From the NCBI RefSeq assembly GCF_003268595.1, contig NZ_CP029797.1, positions 1,633,501 to 1,697,500 on the forward strand: a stretch of DNA of 64,000 nt. Direction: 5' to 3'. Below the pieces are notes generated by a model that ran no database searches, had not been told where the DNA came from, and saw nothing but the letters and a program-made list of their open reading frames with translations. The DNA comes from Paraliobacillus zengyii. Lineage in GTDB: Bacteria; Bacillota; Bacilli; Bacillales; Amphibacillaceae. Shown here piece after piece: positions 1 through 59,093 of this stretch; positions within the stretch are counted from its first letter, which is position 1; each line of letters starts with the position of its first letter. Made by a program: the position numbers and the translations under genes.

Positions 1-614
1 ATTCCCTGACCTGCTTCTCAAGTGAAATTGACTCCCTTTCCGCAGGCACGGCTTCAGCTAACTCGGAAACAAAGTACGTTTCCGAGTGGATCGTGCGCCC
101 GGCATGGGTTATAACTAGCTGGTGAAAGTCCACTACAGGTTTGGCAGTAGGAACTGTTAGCGAATGGCAAGGGTGTCTATCGTGAGGTAGAATCTGAAGG
201 AAGCCGGACGCAAAATCCCGAACTGACGAACAGAAACTGTATATAAGGCTGAATCGGAACGGACGAGTTTGCGATCCCTTACAAAGTCCAATACTGCCCA
301 AATTCCGTACAGTAAATACAGCAGTTACATGGGAGGAAAGTTATAACTCTTACCCGGGGAGGTCTCACGAAGGTCTAATAAGACAATTGTATTAGTGATA
401 ATACGATGAATTGTGAGAAGTCAGCAGACGCCATAGTAGTTTCTCAATGAAACGAAGGGCAGAACAACCTTAAATCTTGGAAAACAGGGAGGTGTAGACA
501 TCGCCGCCTAAGCACAGAAAACAGTGTGGTAAAGACCGAATAGATGGCTACCTATGAGTAAATACGTTGGAAACGGAAGGATTCATAGGAGTGTGCAGGC
601 ATGTCGCATAAGAA

Positions 615-1973: not shown

Positions 1974-2179
1974 TTCAGCCCGTGCTGTTCCTGCAGGAGT
2001 GTCGCCAATTTAACTTGATCCGCTAATATCCAGCTTTCCATCACTAACAGAGAGTAAAAGTCTACAAATAAAAATGAAAGGATTTAAACCATATTTTATT
2101 AGTTAGAAATTATTACGTAGATTATCATTTTCATCTAGTTTAATCGATCTTTTCTATCTATAAGGATGTAAATAGACAT

Positions 2180-2473
2180 CAGCGAAGGAAGCAAATGGAT
2201 GACACTCCTGTGGGAACAGCACAAGTTGAAGATCCACTCGGAAAGCGACTTTTGCTTATCCGAGTTAGCTGAGACTGTGCCCACGGAAAGGGAATCCATA
2301 TGCTGACGAAGCGGGTAAGGGGATCTTCTCTTATGTCGCTGTTTCTCTCAAATTAATCAGATAAAAAGGTAGATGATTTCAGGCGAAGAGTGAAGTCAAT
2401 TTTTACTCTGGATTGTGAAAATTTCTAGTAATTGTAAAACTTAAATGCCTTTTATACACTATAAAAGTTGAGT
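2180..2473 (-). repeat. Palindromic repeat core, copy B, with right arm and terminal repeat
   Basis: The core at 2180-2317 is in the opposite orientation to copy A. It contains GACACTCCTGTGGGAACAGCAC, the hairpin CTCGGAAAGC...GCTTATCCGAG, GTGCCCACGGAAAGGG and an outer arm. A right module follows, TTATGTCGCTGTTTCTCTC (about 2332), shared with copy F, and it ends in AAAGTTGAGT at 2464-2473, the terminal inverted repeat seen complete at 25038/25753. The 155 bp between copies A and B show no gene. Confidence 0.8.
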
Positions 2474-17210: not shown

Positions 17211-17359
17211 ACCCGCTTCTCAAATGAAATTGACTCCCTTTCCGTAGGCACGGCTTCAGCTGTTCCTACTGGACAAGGAATGCTTCGACAGCATTAACAT
17301 CGCACGAGAAAATGACTTCATATTTTCGAGGAGTGTCGCTAATTTCATTGGATGCGCTA
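17211..17359 (+). repeat. Palindromic repeat core, copy C
   Basis: Outer arms TCAAATGAAATTGACTCC and GGAGTGTCGCTAATTTCATTGG enclose CCGTAGGCACGGCTTCAGCT and GTTCCTACTGG. The inner stem is GTAGG/CCTAC, a third base combination besides GCAGG/CCTGC and GTGGG/CCCAC of other copies. The middle (17277-17330) differs from other copies and has its own hairpin potential (GAAAATGACTTCATATTTTC). Confidence 0.8.
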
Positions 17360-17393
17360 TTTTTATAGATATCTGGATAACTAGTCCTGTAAT

Positions 17394-17895: not shown

Positions 17896-18369
17896 ATGGA
17901 AATAAGCAAGACTAGAGATTATGCGTTAGTTGCAAAATTAAACAAGCCAGTTCATGATTTGCATTTTTCTCTATATCCAAAGTATTTCAAAGCATATAAC
18001 TATGAAGAAATCAAAGAAGTATTTAAAGAACTAATAGTTAATGAAAATTTTGCTTTTCTGCTATTAGAAGACTATAAAGAAGCGGTTGGTTATGCTTGGA
18101 TAGAGATTAGAAATTACCAGGAAAACGCGTTCAAGAAAGGTTATAAATCCGTTTATGTGCATCAAATTAGCATTGTTCAAACACAAAGACAAAAGGGATT
18201 TGGAACAAGCTTAATGGACTATATCTATAACTTCGCAAGTGAAAAAGGAATAGACTTGATTGAATTAGATTATTGGTTAGATAATAAAATTGCGAAAGAG
18301 TTTTACAAAAAGCACGACTTTGTAAAATATCGTGAGTTTGTATATAAACAGCTCAACTTTCTCACCTGA
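17896..18369 (+). CDS. GNAT family N-acetyltransferase
   Basis: 157 residues with the GNAT fold pattern: AVGYAWIEIR as beta strand 4, VHQISIVQTQRQKGFGTSLM (about 93-112) containing the acetyl-CoA loop Q/RxxGxG/A as RQKGFG, and LIELDYWLDNKIAKEFYKKHDF as the C-terminal motif B region. The substrate is unknown. I chose ATG 17896; GGGGTGAT lies just upstream. The last residues and the stop codon (LNFLT) are encoded by the left terminal sequence of repeat element D, CTCAACTTTCTCA, so the original C-terminus may have been different. Confidence 0.8.
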   Translation: MEISKTRDYALVAKLNKPVHDLHFSLYPKYFKAYNYEEIKEVFKELIVNENFAFLLLEDYKEAVGYAWIEIRNYQENAFKKGYKSVYVHQISIVQTQRQKGFGTSLMDYIYNFASEKGIDLIELDYWLDNKIAKEFYKKHDFVKYREFVYKQLNFLT

Positions 18370-18710
18370 AAAATAAGCACTGATCGTTGGCTACTATGAG
18401 TTTGTAGTGTGTTCATTATAAAGCTTGACACTATTTAAAAAAGTTGTTTAATACTGAATAACCATAGACTATGCGGTAACTGCCATGTTGATTTCCGCTA
18501 CAGGCAGTCGCTTTCCGCGGGCAAGTCTTCAGCTAACTTCGTAAAGCGGTTTTCTTTACAGAATTAGCTGAAGCCGTGCCTACGGAAAGGGAGTCAATTT
18601 CATTTGAGGAGCGGGTAAGAACTTTATGCCTCTTACCGCAGAGTTTCTCTCGAGTATAAACAACAATTTATAAAGAAGTCTAAATAATGATGATGAACAC
18701 TTAAGTTAAT
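18352..18710 (-). repeat. Palindromic repeat element, copy D, with terminal modules
   Basis: Left end CTCAACTTTCTCA (18352), then AAAAATAAGCACT, GTGTTCATTATAA, CATAGACTATG, all shared with the left module at 25038. The core is at 18485-18618: TTTCCGCGGGCAAG, TTCAGCTAACTTCGTAAAGCG / TTCTTTACAGAATTAGCTGAAG, GTGCCTACGGAAAGGGAGTC, outer arm. The right module CTTACCGCAGAGTTTCTCTC leads to a degenerate end TTAAGTTAAT near 18710. It lies between two convergent genes and fills the gap 18370-18794; nothing else is seen there. Confidence 0.8.
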
Positions 18711-22253: not shown

Positions 22254-24914
22254 GTGAATTGGTATCAGTTAAGTGAAGGAGAAGTCTTGGACAAGCTCGC
22301 AGTGAATCAAAAAGTTGGACTAACAAAAGAAGTTGTAACAGAACGCTTAAAGAAAACGGGGCCCAATCAGCTAGATGAAAAAAAGAAAGCATCTTTAATT
22401 TTTCTTTTCATAAAACAATTTCAGGATTTCATGGTATTTGTTCTGCTGGCTGCTACACTATTATCAGGCCTACTCGGTGAATATGTAGATGCAATTGCGA
22501 TTATTGTAATTGTAGTAATTAATAGTTTTATAGGTTTTTTTCAAGAACAAAAGGCCGAGAAATCATTAACTAAATTAAAAGAATTGTCTGCCCCAGTAGC
22601 ACACGTTCTACGAGATAAAGAATGGATGACTATTCCGTCCCAACAAGTAGTGATTGGGGACATTATTAAACTAACAAATGGGGATCGAATTGTTGCAGAT
22701 ATTCGAATCTGTCAAGGTGAAGGGTTAGAAATTGAGGAATCAGCTTTAACAGGGGAATCTGCACCCGTGCATAAAAAGGTAGCAAAGATTGCAACGGAAG
22801 AACTTGATTATGCTGACCAACAAAACATGGCTTTTATGGGAACGTTAGTGTCAAAAGGTACGGGTGTTGGTGTAGTTGTTGCGACTGGTATGCAAACAGT
22901 GATGGGTCAAATTGCTGATCTATTAGTACAAACGAAAGCCCAGCCAACACCGTTAGAAAGGAGATTGGCTGATTTAGGTAAAATACTTATTGTAATTGCT
23001 TTAATACTTACAGCTTTTGTTGTTTTTATTGGTGTATGGCAAGGGCATCCATTATACGATATGTTCTTAGCTGGGATATCGCTAGCAGTAGCGGCAATTC
23101 CAGAAGGATTACCAGCAATTGTTACAGTTGCCCTTTCTCTAGGTGTCCAACGAATGATTAAGAAGAAAGCAATTGTTCGAAAGTTATCTGCAGTAGAAAC
23201 ATTAGGGAGTACAACCGTAATTTGCTCAGATAAAACAGGAACAATGACTGAAAACAGAATGACAGTAAGACAAATATACACAAATCAACGTTTAATAGAA
23301 GTGACAGGCGAGGGTCACGCATTAACTGGTGCGTTTCAGGTAGAGGAAAAAAGTGTACCCGACAGGTTACTACGTGATGTTTTATTATATGGTATGGTCT
23401 GTAATCATGCAGCGCTGGCTAAAAAAAAGAAACACTGGCAGGTTGATGGCGATCCAACGGAAGGTGCTTTACTAATTGCAGCGCACAAAGCCCATCTTTC
23501 GGAAGACGATCGAAATGATTTCAAAATAATCAAAGAAATACCATTTGACTCAGATCGTAAGCGAATGACTGTTATTGTGGAAGATAAGCAAAAAAGACGT
23601 TTTGCGATTACAAAAGGAGCACCTGACGTATTACTTCCTCGTATTAATTATATGATGGATGATGGGGAACGTAGGCCTTTTACAAGTAAAGATAAAAATA
23701 GAATAGAAGAAAAATTAGATAGGATGACAGAACAGGCTTTACGAACAATTGCTATCTGCGTAAAACCAATTAAAACTGATATGTCTTTTGATCATACGTC
23801 AATTGAAAATAATCTTACTTTCGTTGGCTTAGTTGGAATGATGGACCCACCACGCAAGGAAGTGAAAAAGGCAATAAAGGCTTGTAAAAATGCTGGAATC
23901 AAAACAGTAATGATAACTGGAGATCATGCAAAGACTGCAGAGGCAATCGCAAAGCAGTTAGATATACTGCCTTTAGGTGGACAAGTCCTAAATGGATATG
24001 AACTAAATCATATGTCTGAAATGGAATTAGCTGACAGAGTTGATAATGTCTACGTATTTGCTCGTGTAACGCCTGCACACAAATTAAAAATCGTCCAAGC
24101 TTTACAGGCAAAAGGTCATATAGTAGCGATGACAGGTGATGGAGTTAATGACGCACCAGCAATGAAAGCAAGTGACATTGGTATTAGTATGGGTAAATCT
24201 GGTACTGACGTTGCCAAAGAAGCCTCTGCATTGGTATTACTTGACGACAACTTTGCGACGATTGAGGCAGCGATTGAAGAGGGAAGAAATATATACGAGA
24301 ATATCCGGAAATTCGTACGTTATCTACTAGCCTCAAACGTTGGGGAAATATTGGTCATGTTATTTGCGATCGCTTTAGGCTTTCCATTACCACTAATTCC
24401 AGTCCAAATATTATGGGTTAACCTTGTAACAGATGGTTTGCCTGCTATGGCATTAGGACTTGACCAAGCAGAGAATAATGTGATGAAAACAAAACCTCGA
24501 CCAGTAAAAGAAGGTATTTTCTCCAGAGGATTAGGTGTTAAAATATTAACACGTGGTTTACTGATCGGTGTCGTTACGCTAATAGCATTTATGACTGCCT
24601 ATCAAAACGATCCGGCACATTTAACGTATGCTAGAACAATCGCCTTTACAACACTCGTAATGGCACAGCTCATTCATGTTTTTGATTGTCGAAGTGAACG
24701 TTCAATTTTTTCACGTAATCCATTTCAAAACATTTATTTGTTAGGTGCAGTATTTTCTTCCGTTGTTTTACTGATGGTTGTTATCTATTACCCGCCATTG
24801 CAAGTTGTTTTCGAGACAGTCGATCTTCATTTACGTGACTGGATATTTATCTTATCACTTAGTGCAATTCCGACAGTCTTATTTGGATTCACCAAGAACA
24901 CAGCTAAGTCGTAA
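22254..24914 (+). CDS. yloB: Cation-transporting P-type ATPase, calcium type (YloB)
   Basis: 886 residues, P2A-type ATPase orthologous to B. subtilis YloB, a calcium pump. The actuator motif LTGESAPVHK (about 172), the phosphorylation site CSDKTGTMTENRMTV (Asp near 330), KGAPDVL in the nucleotide domain, MITGDHAKTA and MTGDGVNDAPA hinge motifs and AAIPEGLPAIV in TM4 (calcium site) are present, with about ten membrane spans. I take GTG 22254 as the start: GGAGGAA at 22242-22248 lies correctly before it but would be inside the gene if ATG 22239 were used. It has its own terminator at 24957. Confidence 0.93.
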   Translation: MNWYQLSEGEVLDKLAVNQKVGLTKEVVTERLKKTGPNQLDEKKKASLIFLFIKQFQDFMVFVLLAATLLSGLLGEYVDAIAIIVIVVINSFIGFFQEQKAEKSLTKLKELSAPVAHVLRDKEWMTIPSQQVVIGDIIKLTNGDRIVADIRICQGEGLEIEESALTGESAPVHKKVAKIATEELDYADQQNMAFMGTLVSKGTGVGVVVATGMQTVMGQIADLLVQTKAQPTPLERRLADLGKILIVIALILTAFVVFIGVWQGHPLYDMFLAGISLAVAAIPEGLPAIVTVALSLGVQRMIKKKAIVRKLSAVETLGSTTVICSDKTGTMTENRMTVRQIYTNQRLIEVTGEGHALTGAFQVEEKSVPDRLLRDVLLYGMVCNHAALAKKKKHWQVDGDPTEGALLIAAHKAHLSEDDRNDFKIIKEIPFDSDRKRMTVIVEDKQKRRFAITKGAPDVLLPRINYMMDDGERRPFTSKDKNRIEEKLDRMTEQALRTIAICVKPIKTDMSFDHTSIENNLTFVGLVGMMDPPRKEVKKAIKACKNAGIKTVMITGDHAKTAEAIAKQLDILPLGGQVLNGYELNHMSEMELADRVDNVYVFARVTPAHKLKIVQALQAKGHIVAMTGDGVNDAPAMKASDIGISMGKSGTDVAKEASALVLLDDNFATIEAAIEEGRNIYENIRKFVRYLLASNVGEILVMLFAIALGFPLPLIPVQILWVNLVTDGLPAMALGLDQAENNVMKTKPRPVKEGIFSRGLGVKILTRGLLIGVVTLIAFMTAYQNDPAHLTYARTIAFTTLVMAQLIHVFDCRSERSIFSRNPFQNIYLLGAVFSSVVLLMVVIYYPPLQVVFETVDLHLRDWIFILSLSAIPTVLFGFTKNTAKS

Positions 24915-24956
24915 GAAATTATAACTTTAAACAAAAAGTAAATAAGGCAATCAAAT

Positions 24957-25001
24957 AACCGAGCTATAATAGATGATAATTCAACTATAGTTCGGTTTTT
25001 T
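24957..25001 (+). terminator. Intrinsic terminator of yloB
   Basis: AACCGAGCTATA / TATAGTTCGGTT imperfect stem followed by six T. The terminal repeat of the E/F element starts 37 bp downstream. Confidence 0.8.
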
Positions 25002-25037
25002 GATTTAGTTTAGAAAAGTAGACATTTATTATGAAAT

Positions 25038-25753
25038 ACTCAACTTTCTCAATTAAAAAATAAGCACTAAGCGTTTGCTGTTATAAGTTTGGCGTGTGTT
25101 CATTATAAGCTTGACACTAATTAATTACTGAATAAACATAGACTCTGTCGTAAATAAGAATTTCTAGAACCGCTCCTCAAATGAAATTGACTCCCTTTCC
25201 GCAGGCACGGCCTCAGCTAACTCGGATAAGCAAAGATCGCTTTCCGAGTGGATATTCAGCCCGTGGGATTGCGATTACTCATCCCATCGAAAACATGTGC
25301 TGTTCCTGCAGGAGTGTCGTCAATTTCATTTGATACGCTGGTTTTAGTCCATGAATTAAAAATTGTGTAAAATGCTGCTTTATTATTTGTAATTAAAGGG
25401 TAACTAAAACACGAGTTAGACTCAATAAACAGCGCTTTATCACCTGTTTCAAAAAAAGGTACGCTATCCAGCGAAGGTAGCAAATGGTTGACACTCCTGT
25501 GGGAACAGCGCAAACCGAAGATCCTCTATAGAAGCGTTCTTTGCTTCTATAGATAGCTGAGGTTGTGCCCACGGAAAGGGAGACCATTTGCTACTGTAGC
25601 GTGTCTAAGGTTGTAAGATACCTTATGTCACAGTTTCTCTCACGTGCGCCAGATCAAACGCACTTATGATTACCAAAGAGGTGTGAAGTCAACTTTAAGA
25701 CTATCTTGTTATACCAAGAATTAAGTGTCTGTTTTACAGATTGAAAGTTGAGT
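25038..25753. repeat. Composite palindromic element E/F with 11-bp terminal inverted repeats
   Basis: This 716-bp element begins ACTCAACTTTC and ends GAAAGTTGAGT, a perfect inverted pair. Inside are a left module, core E (25170-25341, forward), a 126-bp spacer, core F (25468-25602, reverse) and a right module with TTATGTCACAGTTTCTCTC. Core E is a long palindrome: outer arms TCAAATGAAATTGAC / GTCAATTTCATTTGA, stem GCAGG/CCTGC, hairpin CTCGGATAAGC / GCTTTCCGAG. Core F has GTGGG/CCCAC and hairpin CTATAGAAGC / GCTTCTATAG. No credible gene is present in 24915-25870; short open frames there follow the repeat. No target-site duplication is evident. The composition suggests a non-autonomous mobile or MITE-like element. 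Confidence 0.85.
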
Positions 25754-25870
25754 TATATATTAAGAATTAGTGAATTTCGTTATGTTCCGTCTCATTTTTA
25801 TATTCATGCCTTTTTTTGCTATACTACTATTATATATTTAAGAATGAATTATAAAATTGGATGTGATGAT

Positions 25871-26749
25871 GTGACAAATAGTATGACGGGATTTGGTAGA
25901 GAAGTTAGAATTGTAGATGGTACTGTCATCGCCGTAGAAATCAGAAGCGTGAACCAACGTTTTCTTGATATCTCACTAAAACTACCACAAGCTTTTTCTA
26001 TGTTTGAAGATAAAATCAAAAAAAATGTCCAACGTTATTTTTCACGGGGGAGAATAGAAGTCTTTATTTCAATAGAAGGTAAAGGATTTGTCAAACGTGA
26101 TTTACAAGTGGACTGGAACCTTTTTGATCAATATATTACTATGTTTCACACGGTGCAGTCACGTTATGATTTAGCAGATGATGTGACGGTCGCGATGATA
26201 CCGAAACTAAATGAAGTTTTAGCCGTTCAAGAAACAGATCAAGAAACGGATGAGTTAAAAGATGCAATTTTAGTCAGCGTTGAAAAAGCATGTCAACAAG
26301 TTTGGGATATGCGTATAAAAGAAGGCCAGGCATTAAAGGAAGATATGGTAACAAGAATAGAAAAAATAGAAAAAATCATAAATATGTTGGGTGAACGACG
26401 AGAAACTGTTATAATAGAATATCGGGAGCGAATTCAAAATAGAATCAAGTCCTACACACTGGAAATGCTTCCTGATGATAATAAAATATATCATGAAATT
26501 GCCTTGTTAGCTGAAAAGGGAGACATAACAGAAGAAGTTACACGATTACATAGTCATCTCAAACAGTTTAGCATGACGGTTGATCAAGAACAGGTAATGG
26601 GTAGGAAATTAGAATTTATTTTACAAGAAATGCTTCGCGAAACAAATACAATAGGCTCTAAATCAAATGATTCATTAATTAGCGAGTGGGTTGTGACGTT
26701 AAAAACAGAAATGGAGAAATTGAAAGAACAAATTCTTAATGTTGAATAA
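25871..26749 (+). CDS. yloC: YicC/YloC family endoribonuclease
   Basis: 292 residues, orthologue of B. subtilis YloC / E. coli YicC, a family reported to have endoribonuclease activity. Conserved N-terminus SMTGFGRE and EIRSVNQRFLDISLKLP; C-terminus DNKIYHEIALLAEKGDITEEV and GRKLEFILQEMLRETNTIGSK. I choose GTG 25871 (MTNSMTGFGR) with GGATGTGAT just upstream, giving the normal family length; the open frame reaching back to 25748 runs into the repeat's terminal sequence. It heads the yloC-remA-gmk-rpoZ group. Confidence 0.92.
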   Translation: MTNSMTGFGREVRIVDGTVIAVEIRSVNQRFLDISLKLPQAFSMFEDKIKKNVQRYFSRGRIEVFISIEGKGFVKRDLQVDWNLFDQYITMFHTVQSRYDLADDVTVAMIPKLNEVLAVQETDQETDELKDAILVSVEKACQQVWDMRIKEGQALKEDMVTRIEKIEKIINMLGERRETVIIEYRERIQNRIKSYTLEMLPDDNKIYHEIALLAEKGDITEEVTRLHSHLKQFSMTVDQEQVMGRKLEFILQEMLRETNTIGSKSNDSLISEWVVTLKTEMEKLKEQILNVE

Positions 26750-42199: not shown

Positions 42200-42559
42200 A
42201 CTAAGTTTACAACTTACGCAAGTATGAAACAGGTATTCAAGTCTTGATATAACAAGGAAGTCTGACAATCAAAATAGAAGTTGACTTCACGCTTCTTTTG
42301 AAATCGGCTGACGAACTTTTTGCTTTACTAAGTTAGCTGAAGCCGTGCCTACGGAAAGGGAGCCCATTTCGCTTGAGATGCGAGGCGAAAGCTCTGTTAA
42401 ATGTCCATTTAACTAAAGATCGTTACGACATAGTCTGTGTTAATTCTGTAATTGACAATAAACTTATAAAAAACAGATCTCTAAAGAATGTCACATAATA
42501 TAATTCAAACGAAACACATTCAACAATTAACGCTTATTTTTTTGTTGAGATAATTGAGT
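42200..42559 (-). repeat. Palindromic repeat element G (truncated core)
   Basis: Reverse orientation relative to E. The right end TTGAGATAATTGAGT is the complement of ACTCAATTATCTCAA, near the left end ACTCAACTTTCTCAA of element E/F. The left part AAGTTGACTTCAC is the complement of GTGAAGTCAACTT in the right module of E/F. The core at about 42308-42385 keeps AGTTAGCTGAAGCCGTGCCTACGGAAAGGGAG and one outer arm but lacks the other half. It fills the 42181-42615 gap; no gene is seen. Confidence 0.7.
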
Positions 42560-49707: not shown

Positions 49708-49941
49708 ATGGCAGATACATTTGAACGCGTAAAGAAAATAGTGATCGATCGCCTAGATGTTGAAGAAGATAAAGTAACTTTAGAGGCATCTTTTAAAGAT
49801 GATTTAGAAGCAGATTCATTAGATGTTGTTGAACTTGTTATGGAACTAGAAGATGAGTTTGATATGGAAATCGCTGATGAAGATGCAGAAAAACTTCAAA
49901 CGGTTGGTGATGCTGTAACGTACATAAACAGCCAATCCTAA
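49708..49941 (+). CDS. acpP: Acyl carrier protein
   Basis: 77 residues, acidic four-helix protein. The phosphopantetheine attachment Ser is in [12 protein letters not shown] (about 36). ATG 49708 ([10 protein letters not shown]) is preceded by AAGGGGGTGA. It is the last gene of the fab operon; a terminator follows at 49957. Confidence 0.96.
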
Positions 49942-49956
49942 TAAATGGTATCAATT

Positions 49957-49990
49957 AAAAAGTCTCGCTCAAAAAGCGAGACTTTTAAAA
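49957..49990 (+). terminator. Intrinsic terminator of the fab operon
   Basis: AAAAGTCTCGCT / AGCGAGACTTTT with a short A-rich loop. It separates acpP from rnc, which are close in B. subtilis. Confidence 0.85.
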
Positions 49991-50064
49991 TATGGCTCTT
50001 TTCGAAAAGATTGTTGCTTTTCAATATGAACTTGATAAAAACTGCGACGTAGTGAAACTTTTTT

Positions 50065-50486
50065 ACCGCTACGCTCCACAAGTGAAATGGGATCGCTTTC
50101 CGTGGGCACAACCTCAGCTATCTCTAGAAGCAAAAATCGCTTCTAGAGAGGATCTTCGGTTTGTGTTGTTCCCACAGGAGTCTCACCCATCTCACTTGCT
50201 CCGCTAGTTTTTGTTTATAAATAAGTAAAGCGTGTCCTATTTCATACTGAATTTAAATACCAGTAACTATGTTAGTTACTGAAAAACACATCAGTTGTTA
50301 ATTTATTATAACTAGCGTATCAAGTGAAATTGACGACACTCCTGCAGGAACAGCACATGTTTTCGATGGGATGAGTAATCGCAATCCCACGGGCTGAAGA
50401 TCCACTCGGAAAGCGGTCTTTGCTTATCCGAGTTAGCTGAAGCCGTGCCTGCGGAAAGGGAGTCAATTTCACTTGAGAAGCGGGTT
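50065..50486. repeat. Head-to-head pair of palindromic cores, copies H and I
   Basis: Copy H (50065-50206, forward) has outer arms around CCGTGGGCACAAC / GTTGTTCCCACAGG and the central hairpin CTCTAGAAGC / GCTTCTAGAG. Copy I (50313-50486, reverse) has arms TCAAGTGAAATTGAC / GTCAATTTCACTTGA and GCAGG/CCTGC; its complement is almost identical to core E (25170-25341), with about five differences over 170 bp. The spacer (50207-50312) and the sequence from 50487 to the rnc ribosome site hold no gene. An open frame at 49992-50207 follows copy H and is not considered real. Confidence 0.85.
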
Positions 50487-50628
50487 AGATAATTCGTTAC
50501 GTCGTAGTTGATGATAATGCTGACGTAAGTATGGTTAAGGGCAGTCTATGGAAATGTTTTAAACAACAATCTTTTAGAAAAGAGCTTAAAAATAAAGGTG
50601 TTAAAATAATGAATAGGAGGCGAAGGAT

Positions 50629-51306
50629 ATGAATTTTCAACCATTACAAGATCATTTGCAAATTCATTTTAATAATGAATCGATATTGCAACAAGCTTTT
50701 ACACATTCTTCTTATGTGAATGAAAATCGTGGCAAATCATCTCAAGATAATGAACGGCTTGAATTTTTAGGAGATGCGGTATTAGAACTAGGTGTTTCGC
50801 AATATTTATATCGTACTTATCCTAATATGGCAGAAGGAGAGTTAACGAAATTACGCGCATCAATTGTCTGTGAGCCTGCCTTAGTTGGTTTTGCAAATGA
50901 TTTATCGTTTGATCAATACGTGTTACTTGGTAAGGGTGAAGAACGAACTGGTGGGAGAAAGCGTCCAGCATTATTAGCTGATGTTTTTGAAGCTTTTGTT
51001 GGTGCACTTTACTTAGATCAAGGTTTTGATGTTGTATTAGACTTCTTGGATAAATACCTTTATCCAAAAATTGAAAAAGGTGCCTTTTCTCACGCAATGG
51101 ATTATAAAAGCCAGTTGCAGGAATTGATTCAACAGAATAGAGATGCAGAGATTGTATATGAAATAGTTGAGGAAAAAGGTCCCGCACATGATCGCGAATT
51201 CATTGCAAACGTACGTTTGAATCAAGAAATTGCTGGAGTTGGACATGGTAGAACAAAGAAGGAAGCAGAACAACGAGCTGCTAAAAAGGCATTAGATCAA
51301 AGGTAG
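50629..51306 (+). CDS. rnc: Ribonuclease III
   Basis: 225 residues, double-stranded RNA endonuclease for rRNA and mRNA processing. The RNase III signature [17 protein letters not shown] (about 42) and [12 protein letters not shown] (about 115) hold the metal-binding acidic residues; the C-terminal dsRNA-binding domain (about 150-225) ends [16 protein letters not shown]. Start ATG 50629 behind AGGAGGCGAAGG. It is slightly shorter than the B. subtilis protein. The upstream region is occupied by repeat pair H/I. Confidence 0.96.
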
Positions 51307-58761: not shown

Positions 58762-59093
58762 CTAAACTTTCTCAACCTAAAATAAGCATGCTGTCTAAAC
58801 GACTTTTGTTTATTACGAAACAACAATTAATTCTGAGGTAACACCCTCGCTATGGAAGCGAATGGGCTCTCTTTCTGGTGGGGTGGGAACAGCGCGGGCC
58901 GAAGTTAGCTGAAGCCGTGCCCACGGAAAGCGAAGTATATTTCCAAAGCGGTATGCTGCATTTTCTATCAATTTCGTAAAATGTATCGCAAAGATGCTTA
59001 CGAGAAGAGCATGAAGTCAACTTAACTTTTGATTGTGAGACTTTTTAAGTTTAACAAGATTTAAATGTCTAGTTCAATCTGCAAAAGTTAAGT
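58762..59093. repeat. Palindromic repeat element J
   Basis: The left end CTAAACTTTCTCAACCTAAAA and right end GCAAAAGTTAAGT resemble the 25038/25753 termini. The core (58845-58952) has GTGGGAACAGCGC / GTGCCCACGG with GTGGG/CCCAC, but a shortened middle (GGGCCGAAGTTAGCTGAAG) lacking the central hairpin. The right module holds GCATGAAGTCAACTT. No gene is seen in the 58745-59208 gap besides this element. Confidence 0.75.

Follow-up and report, generated by a model that had tools for sequence, protein, structure and literature searches.

Prokaryotic MITEs such as QMITE2 are described as short, folded elements with terminal inverted repeats and AT-rich intergenic targets, and for QMITE2 itself direct repeats of 7-9 bp are given (PMC10969869). 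Bacillales and Staphylococcus also harbor structured repeats that are mostly intergenic, namely bcr1 of the B. cereus group, Bhal-1 (74 nt, 36 copies) and Sta-1 to Sta-4, of which Sta-2 is border-spanning according to the descriptions in a 2008 survey (PMC2267715). A third kind of described system is the small RNA. The candidates tsr1-tsr39 were reported as new S. aureus sRNAs in an article whose main text does not contain tsr24 by name (PMC7392542).

We analyzed a multi-copy palindromic repeat of Paraliobacillus zengyii in a 64-kb stretch of DNA, hereafter the window (NZ_CP029797.1, bases 1633501-1697500; the genome is a single contig of 3,728,451 bp). The repeat shares with the prokaryotic MITEs the short length, the terminal inverted repeats, the AT-rich intergenic targets and the folding, and differs from them in its internal divergent pair of a hairpin that covaries class-wide. 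Moreover, the same hairpin is common to elements with different ends, and the parent IS was not found. Like bcr1, Bhal-1 and the Sta families, it is structured and mostly intergenic; these families, by contrast, are described in the survey with neither pairing nor MITE ends nor a class-wide range (PMC2267715), and Bhal-1 or one of the Sta families might be a fragment of the unit. No description of the repeat was found in the literature searched, which comprised titles and abstract openings and left most subscription journals outside.

The initial annotation knew of no named family for the repeat. This stands insofar as no Rfam family reaches its gathering threshold there (the six matches in the window belong to parts of a group II intron, to PyrR sites and to an L19 leader), and it gives way insofar as the core is collinear with RF02577 tsr24. 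The best tsr24 score in the window is 26.1 bits against a gathering cut-off of 50, with the same polarity and with both conserved regions spanned (shared core GA.ACUCCUG.GGGA.CAG ... CCGAAGA.C ... GCUGAG ... CCC..GGAAAG.GA). Among 14 loci from elsewhere in the class with units found by R1, our covariance model of the unit built from 25 own-genome units without side hairpin, tsr24 matches at E<=0.01 in five and passes its cut-off in three, L124, L117 and L113, the last with two units (82.8, 61.7, 54.0 and 53.9 bits; all three loci come from family code f56, with genome sizes near 2.5 Mb). The match in L124 is full-length. Of 12 additional loci, ten give tsr24 scores of 30.1-45.9 bits, all under the cut-off. 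The unit is related to tsr24, with the difference that tsr24 is filed as an S. aureus sRNA gene whereas the window unit is multi-copy, paired and set in MITE-like elements.

Anatomy, pairing and distribution of the unit

Each unit forms an imperfect palindrome, about 135 nt long or, with an optional side hairpin, about 170 nt. The outer stem varies and has AGCG/CGCT-like bases at the foot. Further in come, one after the other, an asymmetric loop of conserved sequence (GA.ACTCC / GGAAAG.GA), a stem of five pairs and another conserved region (CYGAAGATCC / TTAGCTGAG), and the unit closes in a terminal stem-loop that again varies. The extra side hairpin of about 35 nt is present in 28 of the 53 aligned own-genome units and resembles a very small mobile module sitting within the unit. 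It has the form GTTTTCGATGGGRY-GAGTAAYCGCA-RYCCCA with a covarying stem, and two window examples are marked in Table 1. Usually it sits in the 5' arm and sometimes, inverted, in the 3' arm; L233 has three tandem copies, and further sites are L182:4552-4640, L233:1411-1500 and L328:473.

In the window, the covariance model R1, of the kind proposed in the initial annotation, returns 12 rows at E<=0.1, corresponding to ten copies and two reverse-strand duplicates, so that all ten of the palindromic copies originally noticed are recovered. The span given for the 25-kb copies, 25170-25602, marks a real repeat and covers only the inner part of a 714-bp element. The size of the unit, its divergent pairing and the enclosing MITE-like elements had been missed. 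The coordinates of all features are collected in Table 1.

Table 1. Units, elements and intron of the repeat in the 64-kb window, with strand and basis of each call
Feature	Position	Strand	Basis
Intron-split unit, first part	9..92	-	R1 row 9-151
Group II intron inserted directly after the unit's terminal stem-loop	93..1973	+	Rfam RF02001, RF01998, RF00029; ends by eye
Intron-split unit, second part	1974..2025	-	sequence reading
Unit, divergent partner of intron-split unit	2176..2316	+	R1 155 bits
Diverged single unit	17211..17363	-	R1 38.5 bits
Apparent fusion of two half-units; left element end at 18352	18491..18616	+	R1
Whole MITE-like element, 714 bp, ends CTCAACTTTCTCA / GAAAGTTGAG	25039..25752		end scan
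Unit with side hairpin, left member of divergent pair	25168..25344	-	R1 89.8 bits
Spacer between the two 25-kb units	25345..25464		no promoter excess over shuffles, 24 spacers tested
Unit, right member of divergent pair	25465..25604	+	R1 155.7 bits; tsr24 26.1 bits (cut-off 50)
Partial or diverged unit	42263..42382	+	R1 25.0 bits
Second complete element, 593 bp, ends GGCTCTTTTCGAAAAGATTGTTG / CAACAATCTTTTAGAAAAGAGCT	49994..50586		end scan
Unit in 50-kb element	50069..50210	-	R1 141.7 bits
Unit with side hairpin in 50-kb element	50309..50485	+	R1 102.1 bits
Partial or diverged unit, within 331-bp span between two degenerate element ends	58852..58953	+	R1 27.1 bits

Across the 3.73-Mb genome, R1 finds at least 142 units at E<=0.01 among the best 150 of 1303 first-look candidates scored. 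Neighboring units less than 700 bp apart are divergent in 48 of 49 cases and convergent in none, with a median gap of 123 bp, and the other 44 own-genome units are alone at this threshold. In 126 loci of other genomes, not all of them independent, 47 of 50 neighboring units are divergent and the rest tandem. Three tandem units, 189 bp apart, are seen at L113:1312-1795 in a small-genome relative (G339), where the units match tsr24.

The unit is widespread. A DNA-only search of 100 genomes sampled from the family matches 47, and R1 at E<=1e-4, with 16 candidates scored in each genome, detects the unit in 131 of the order's 199 sampled genomes (73 of 98 genera). In the class-wide sample, 42 of 250 genomes match, 32 of them outside the order and in six family codes (12 candidates per genome). 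The own genome is counted among the matches of both the order and the class. In the named collection, a conserved 26-base pattern occurs in at least 117 stretches, from Sediminibacillus, Virgibacillus, Oceanobacillus, Halobacillus, Lentibacillus, Gracilibacillus, Amphibacillus, Aquibacillus, Planomicrobium and others.

Within the own genome, 45 clusters have both neighboring genes called; these genes are tandem at 32 clusters, convergent at 11 and divergent at 2, as counted on mechanical ORFs of at least 80 aa with no genome-wide baseline behind the figures. The elements thus adjoin gene 3' ends and seem to avoid shared promoters. Promoter scores in 24 spacers between paired units show no excess over shuffled sequence (mean best score 9.19 and 9.17, respectively). 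No terminator consisting of a hairpin and a T-run is called in 24900-25900, and the one call in 49900-50650 lies in the spacer, with none in a unit. The 50-kb element is located just upstream of the RNase III gene (50629-51306), so that an rnc transcript may contain long hairpins ahead of the gene.

The first two units of the window form a divergent pair that has been pushed apart by a group II intron (junction TGGATC followed by GTGCGCCCGG). As the intron stands exactly after the terminal stem-loop of the unit, the hairpin served as its landing site. The reading frame of the intron's reverse transcriptase is split into an RVT_1 part (615-1475) and a GIIM part (1529-1900), as assigned with Pfam.

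Covariation of the stems and the strand that folds

On a MAFFT alignment of the 53 own-genome units, RNAalifold gives 38 pairs, 23 of which have both sides changed. The fraction of cells that pair is 97.0%, against 85.0% after shuffling, and 280 cells covary, against 92.4; none of 500 shuffles is as high on either count. A weaker covariation measure that takes in further pair types is equalled by 17 of the 500, and in the slid-partner control only 28-44% of cells pair. For 104 distinct units of named genera, the corresponding values are 88.3% vs 68.9% for pairing and 662 vs 171.5 for covarying cells, in an alignment (A5) that is fitted to the model and therefore leans towards structure. This alignment was used because MAFFT aligned the outer stems badly; the MAFFT cross-genus alignment includes 45 of the 65 listed diverse units, and its own consensus fold covers the core only. 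Since shuffling ignores relatedness, these counts are not formal probabilities. A stronger argument than the shuffle statistics is the replacement of the outer stems between genera: with no fitted alignment involved, the two arms of a unit share a complementary run of at least 7 in 66 of 96 representatives, compared with 6% for arms taken from different units. The compensatory change noticed in the initial annotation is real and, both in the own units and across the named genera, the fold is maintained.

Folded as RNA, the strand in the sense of tsr24 is the more stable one for 50 of the 53 own units and for 98 of the 117 representatives; DNA parameters raise these numbers to 52 and 108. An excess of G-U over A-C in the RNAalifold counts is not trusted because RNA energies are used there; stem wobbles were therefore counted with an aligner blind to wobble. 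The set comprises 231 units (232 minus one reverse-strand duplicate), of which the outer arms were usable in 204 and the terminal stems in 170; the 117 representatives contribute 96 and 75. In the variable outer and terminal stems of the representatives, clustered at 85%, the ratio of G-T to A-C is 31:9 and 17:1, and in the variable stems of the 53 own units, found by sequence alone, it is 49:4. Over the whole hairpin including the conserved loops there is no difference, with 365:358 for all units and 145:172 for the representatives, and under the strictest filter, demanding two flanking pairs, the representatives give only 11:4 and 1:1. With relatedness only crudely removed, the balance favors selection on one folded strand, either RNA or single-stranded DNA. 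The suggestion of a structured RNA, one of three made at the outset, is likely and short of proof, based on this one-strand folding preference and the homology with tsr24.

Element ends, target sites and the search for a mobilizer

An element of 714 bp with ends CTCAACTTTC...GAAAGTTGAG encloses the 25-kb pair, and the 593-bp element at 50 kb has a 23-bp inverted repeat of a different type. Terminal inverted repeats in the own genome are of the CTCAACTTTCTCA and GGCTCTTTTCTAAAAGATTGTTG types, while those of G178, a genome of another genus, are of the GGCTCTGTTAAA type. Most of the 46 own-genome clusters have one end or no end assigned. Both ends are assigned in 14 elements of the genus, 13 of the own genome and one of the same-genus genome G021. 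Some of these ends could be assigned only by allowing as many as 6 mismatches over 23 bases or 2 over 10. Perfect direct repeats of 7, 7, 7, 7, 8, 10 and 11 bases flank seven of these 14 elements, whereas none of 182 cross-pairings reaches 7 bases. The other seven have no perfect direct repeat; they include all three bounded elements of the window (25, 50 and 58 kb), and several of them have weak ends.

The syntenic DNA of G021 covers 60 kb, with 71-79% identity in blocks and the first 20 kb of the window outside the comparison. In it, the sites corresponding to the 25-, 42-, 50- and 58-kb copies are empty, and at the 50-kb site 14 bp stand between the aligned flanks. The reverse case is also observed, with one G021 element whose site is empty in the window. 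ORFs over some of the 46 clusters are only mechanical (80-138 aa at a threshold of 80), and the largest window element measures 714 bp. With their terminal inverted repeats, target-site duplications, empty sites and lack of an internal transposase gene, the elements are mobile and belong to the MITEs by anatomy only. The MITE reading put forward in the initial annotation is thereby borne out on the anatomical side, with no mobilizer found; we infer a transposase acting in trans.

In G178, a 189-bp MITE is present in at least 40 copies that are 97-100% alike (best 40 of 167 candidates scored), which is a recent amplification burst. Direct repeats of at least 7 bases are found in 23 of 32 copies, compared with 3.0% in mismatched partners, and repeats of 8 bases in 19 of 32, compared with 1.1% in the control, allowing one base of slack per end in copies and controls alike. 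Each of three copies scanned contains one unit, so the pair is not essential. The G178 and 50-kb ends share GGCTCT and ATTGTTG and are thus possibly one kind of end, from which the CTCAAC-type end differs. Among the seven elements of the window's genus with a direct repeat, the 364-bp element at L319:1044-1407 has CTCAACTTTC ends, a repeat of 7 bp and no R1 unit, which implies that the ends do not need the unit. In another genome, G222 (L147-L153), near-identical elements some 295 bp long have GAGGCTGGGACA...TGTCCCAGCCTC as their borders and contain one unit and a second hairpin.

Tests of RAYT, ISL3 and IS1595 found no transposase with matching ends. The GGCTCT ends look ISL3-like. ISL3 was rejected, its transposase being only a fragment in G000 and the ends not matching in G178; IS1595 was rejected because it is absent from five genomes. 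At 3 mismatches, neither the 7 sites of G000 nor the 10 sites of G021 include a widely spaced pair of ends. Plasmid records show no match to 25100-25700; the unit gives one weak match there, and five records by typed consensus (PLSDB). Two of the PLSDB records, NZ_CP088021.1 and NZ_CP025132.1, carry units alongside either housekeeping genes of chromosomal kind or a gene for an M20 peptidase, have no annotated transposase adjoining the unit, and look like misassigned chromosome pieces. No unit match is found in phage records, and no viral contig has the conserved 26-base pattern.

Explanations and significance

The repeat probably represents non-autonomous MITE-like transposons whose interior is typically a divergent pair of hairpin units selected on one folded strand. 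A competing account holds that the units are stand-alone structured ncRNA genes, sRNAs like tsr24 that were copied around, with the transposon features being secondary. The tsr24 homology, full-length and over the cut-off in L124, and the strand preference speak for it; nevertheless, close neighbors are almost always divergent pairs, the 24 spacers have no promoter excess, and target-site repeats surround the multi-copy elements, which makes this account unlikely. We give slightly less weight to the idea that the covariation is unselected and arises from template-switching during replication, by which one arm of a palindrome is copied onto the other. The great length of the palindromes and the replacement of the outer stem between genera with complementarity retained speak for such a process. 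However, arm-copying should erase the asymmetric internal loops, which persist across genera, and it gives no reason for the preference of G-T over A-C on one strand.

Bidirectional intrinsic terminators would account for the position of the elements next to gene 3' ends, and a group II intron has used a unit's stem-loop as its insertion site; with no hairpin and T-run at the 25-kb element and the sole call at the 50-kb element falling in the spacer, the two elements scanned argue against this function, and we regard it as improbable. Movement of REP, BIME or REPIN elements by a RAYT (Y1) transposase, the REP-like option of the initial annotation, is hardly credible. Extragenic palindromes in inverted pairs are common to both, but REP and REPIN elements, which are moved by a Y1 transposase, are palindromes of 20-40 nt with a GTAG/CGTC tag, much shorter than units of 135-170 nt. 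Y1 transposition makes no target-site repeats, which are present here, and the own genome has no Y1_Tnp match in a search that is positive in 5 of 14 control genomes.

For the MITE-like transposons with paired hairpin units, the following mechanism can be proposed. A transposase would move the whole element in trans, and the unit would work as folded RNA, or possibly as folded single-stranded DNA, when transcripts of neighboring genes run through it. As the pair is divergent, read-through from either side carries one sense unit, and the lack of a promoter excess together with the lack of a terminator call in the units of the two scanned elements makes read-through transcription the likeliest setting. 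Since the elements adjoin gene 3' ends, the hairpin may contribute to the 3' end, the stability or the processing of transcripts, for example as an RNase III substrate, a role that we infer with low to moderate confidence. In S. aureus, tsr24 would be a member of the family that is expressed as a small RNA. A broader history is conceivable, although on balance doubtful, in which an old functional RNA of the class Bacilli spread as cargo on elements with different ends, the smaller GAGTAAYCGCA-loop module moved inside it, and tsr24 would be one staphylococcal branch.

Taken together, the repeat is real and widespread, and it is related to a little-studied Staphylococcus small RNA. The only convincing match in the RNA library, tsr24, an obscure sRNA of S. 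aureus, is now placed in an evolutionary family. The units also offer abundant natural material for examining whether transposon-borne hairpins owe their persistence to the movement of the element, to host transcripts or to mutation alone. If the RNA did spread as cargo, it would have to be seen as an RNA structure carried about by MITEs and not as a by-product of palindromic ends, and the divergent pair would yield one folded sense copy in either direction of transcription.
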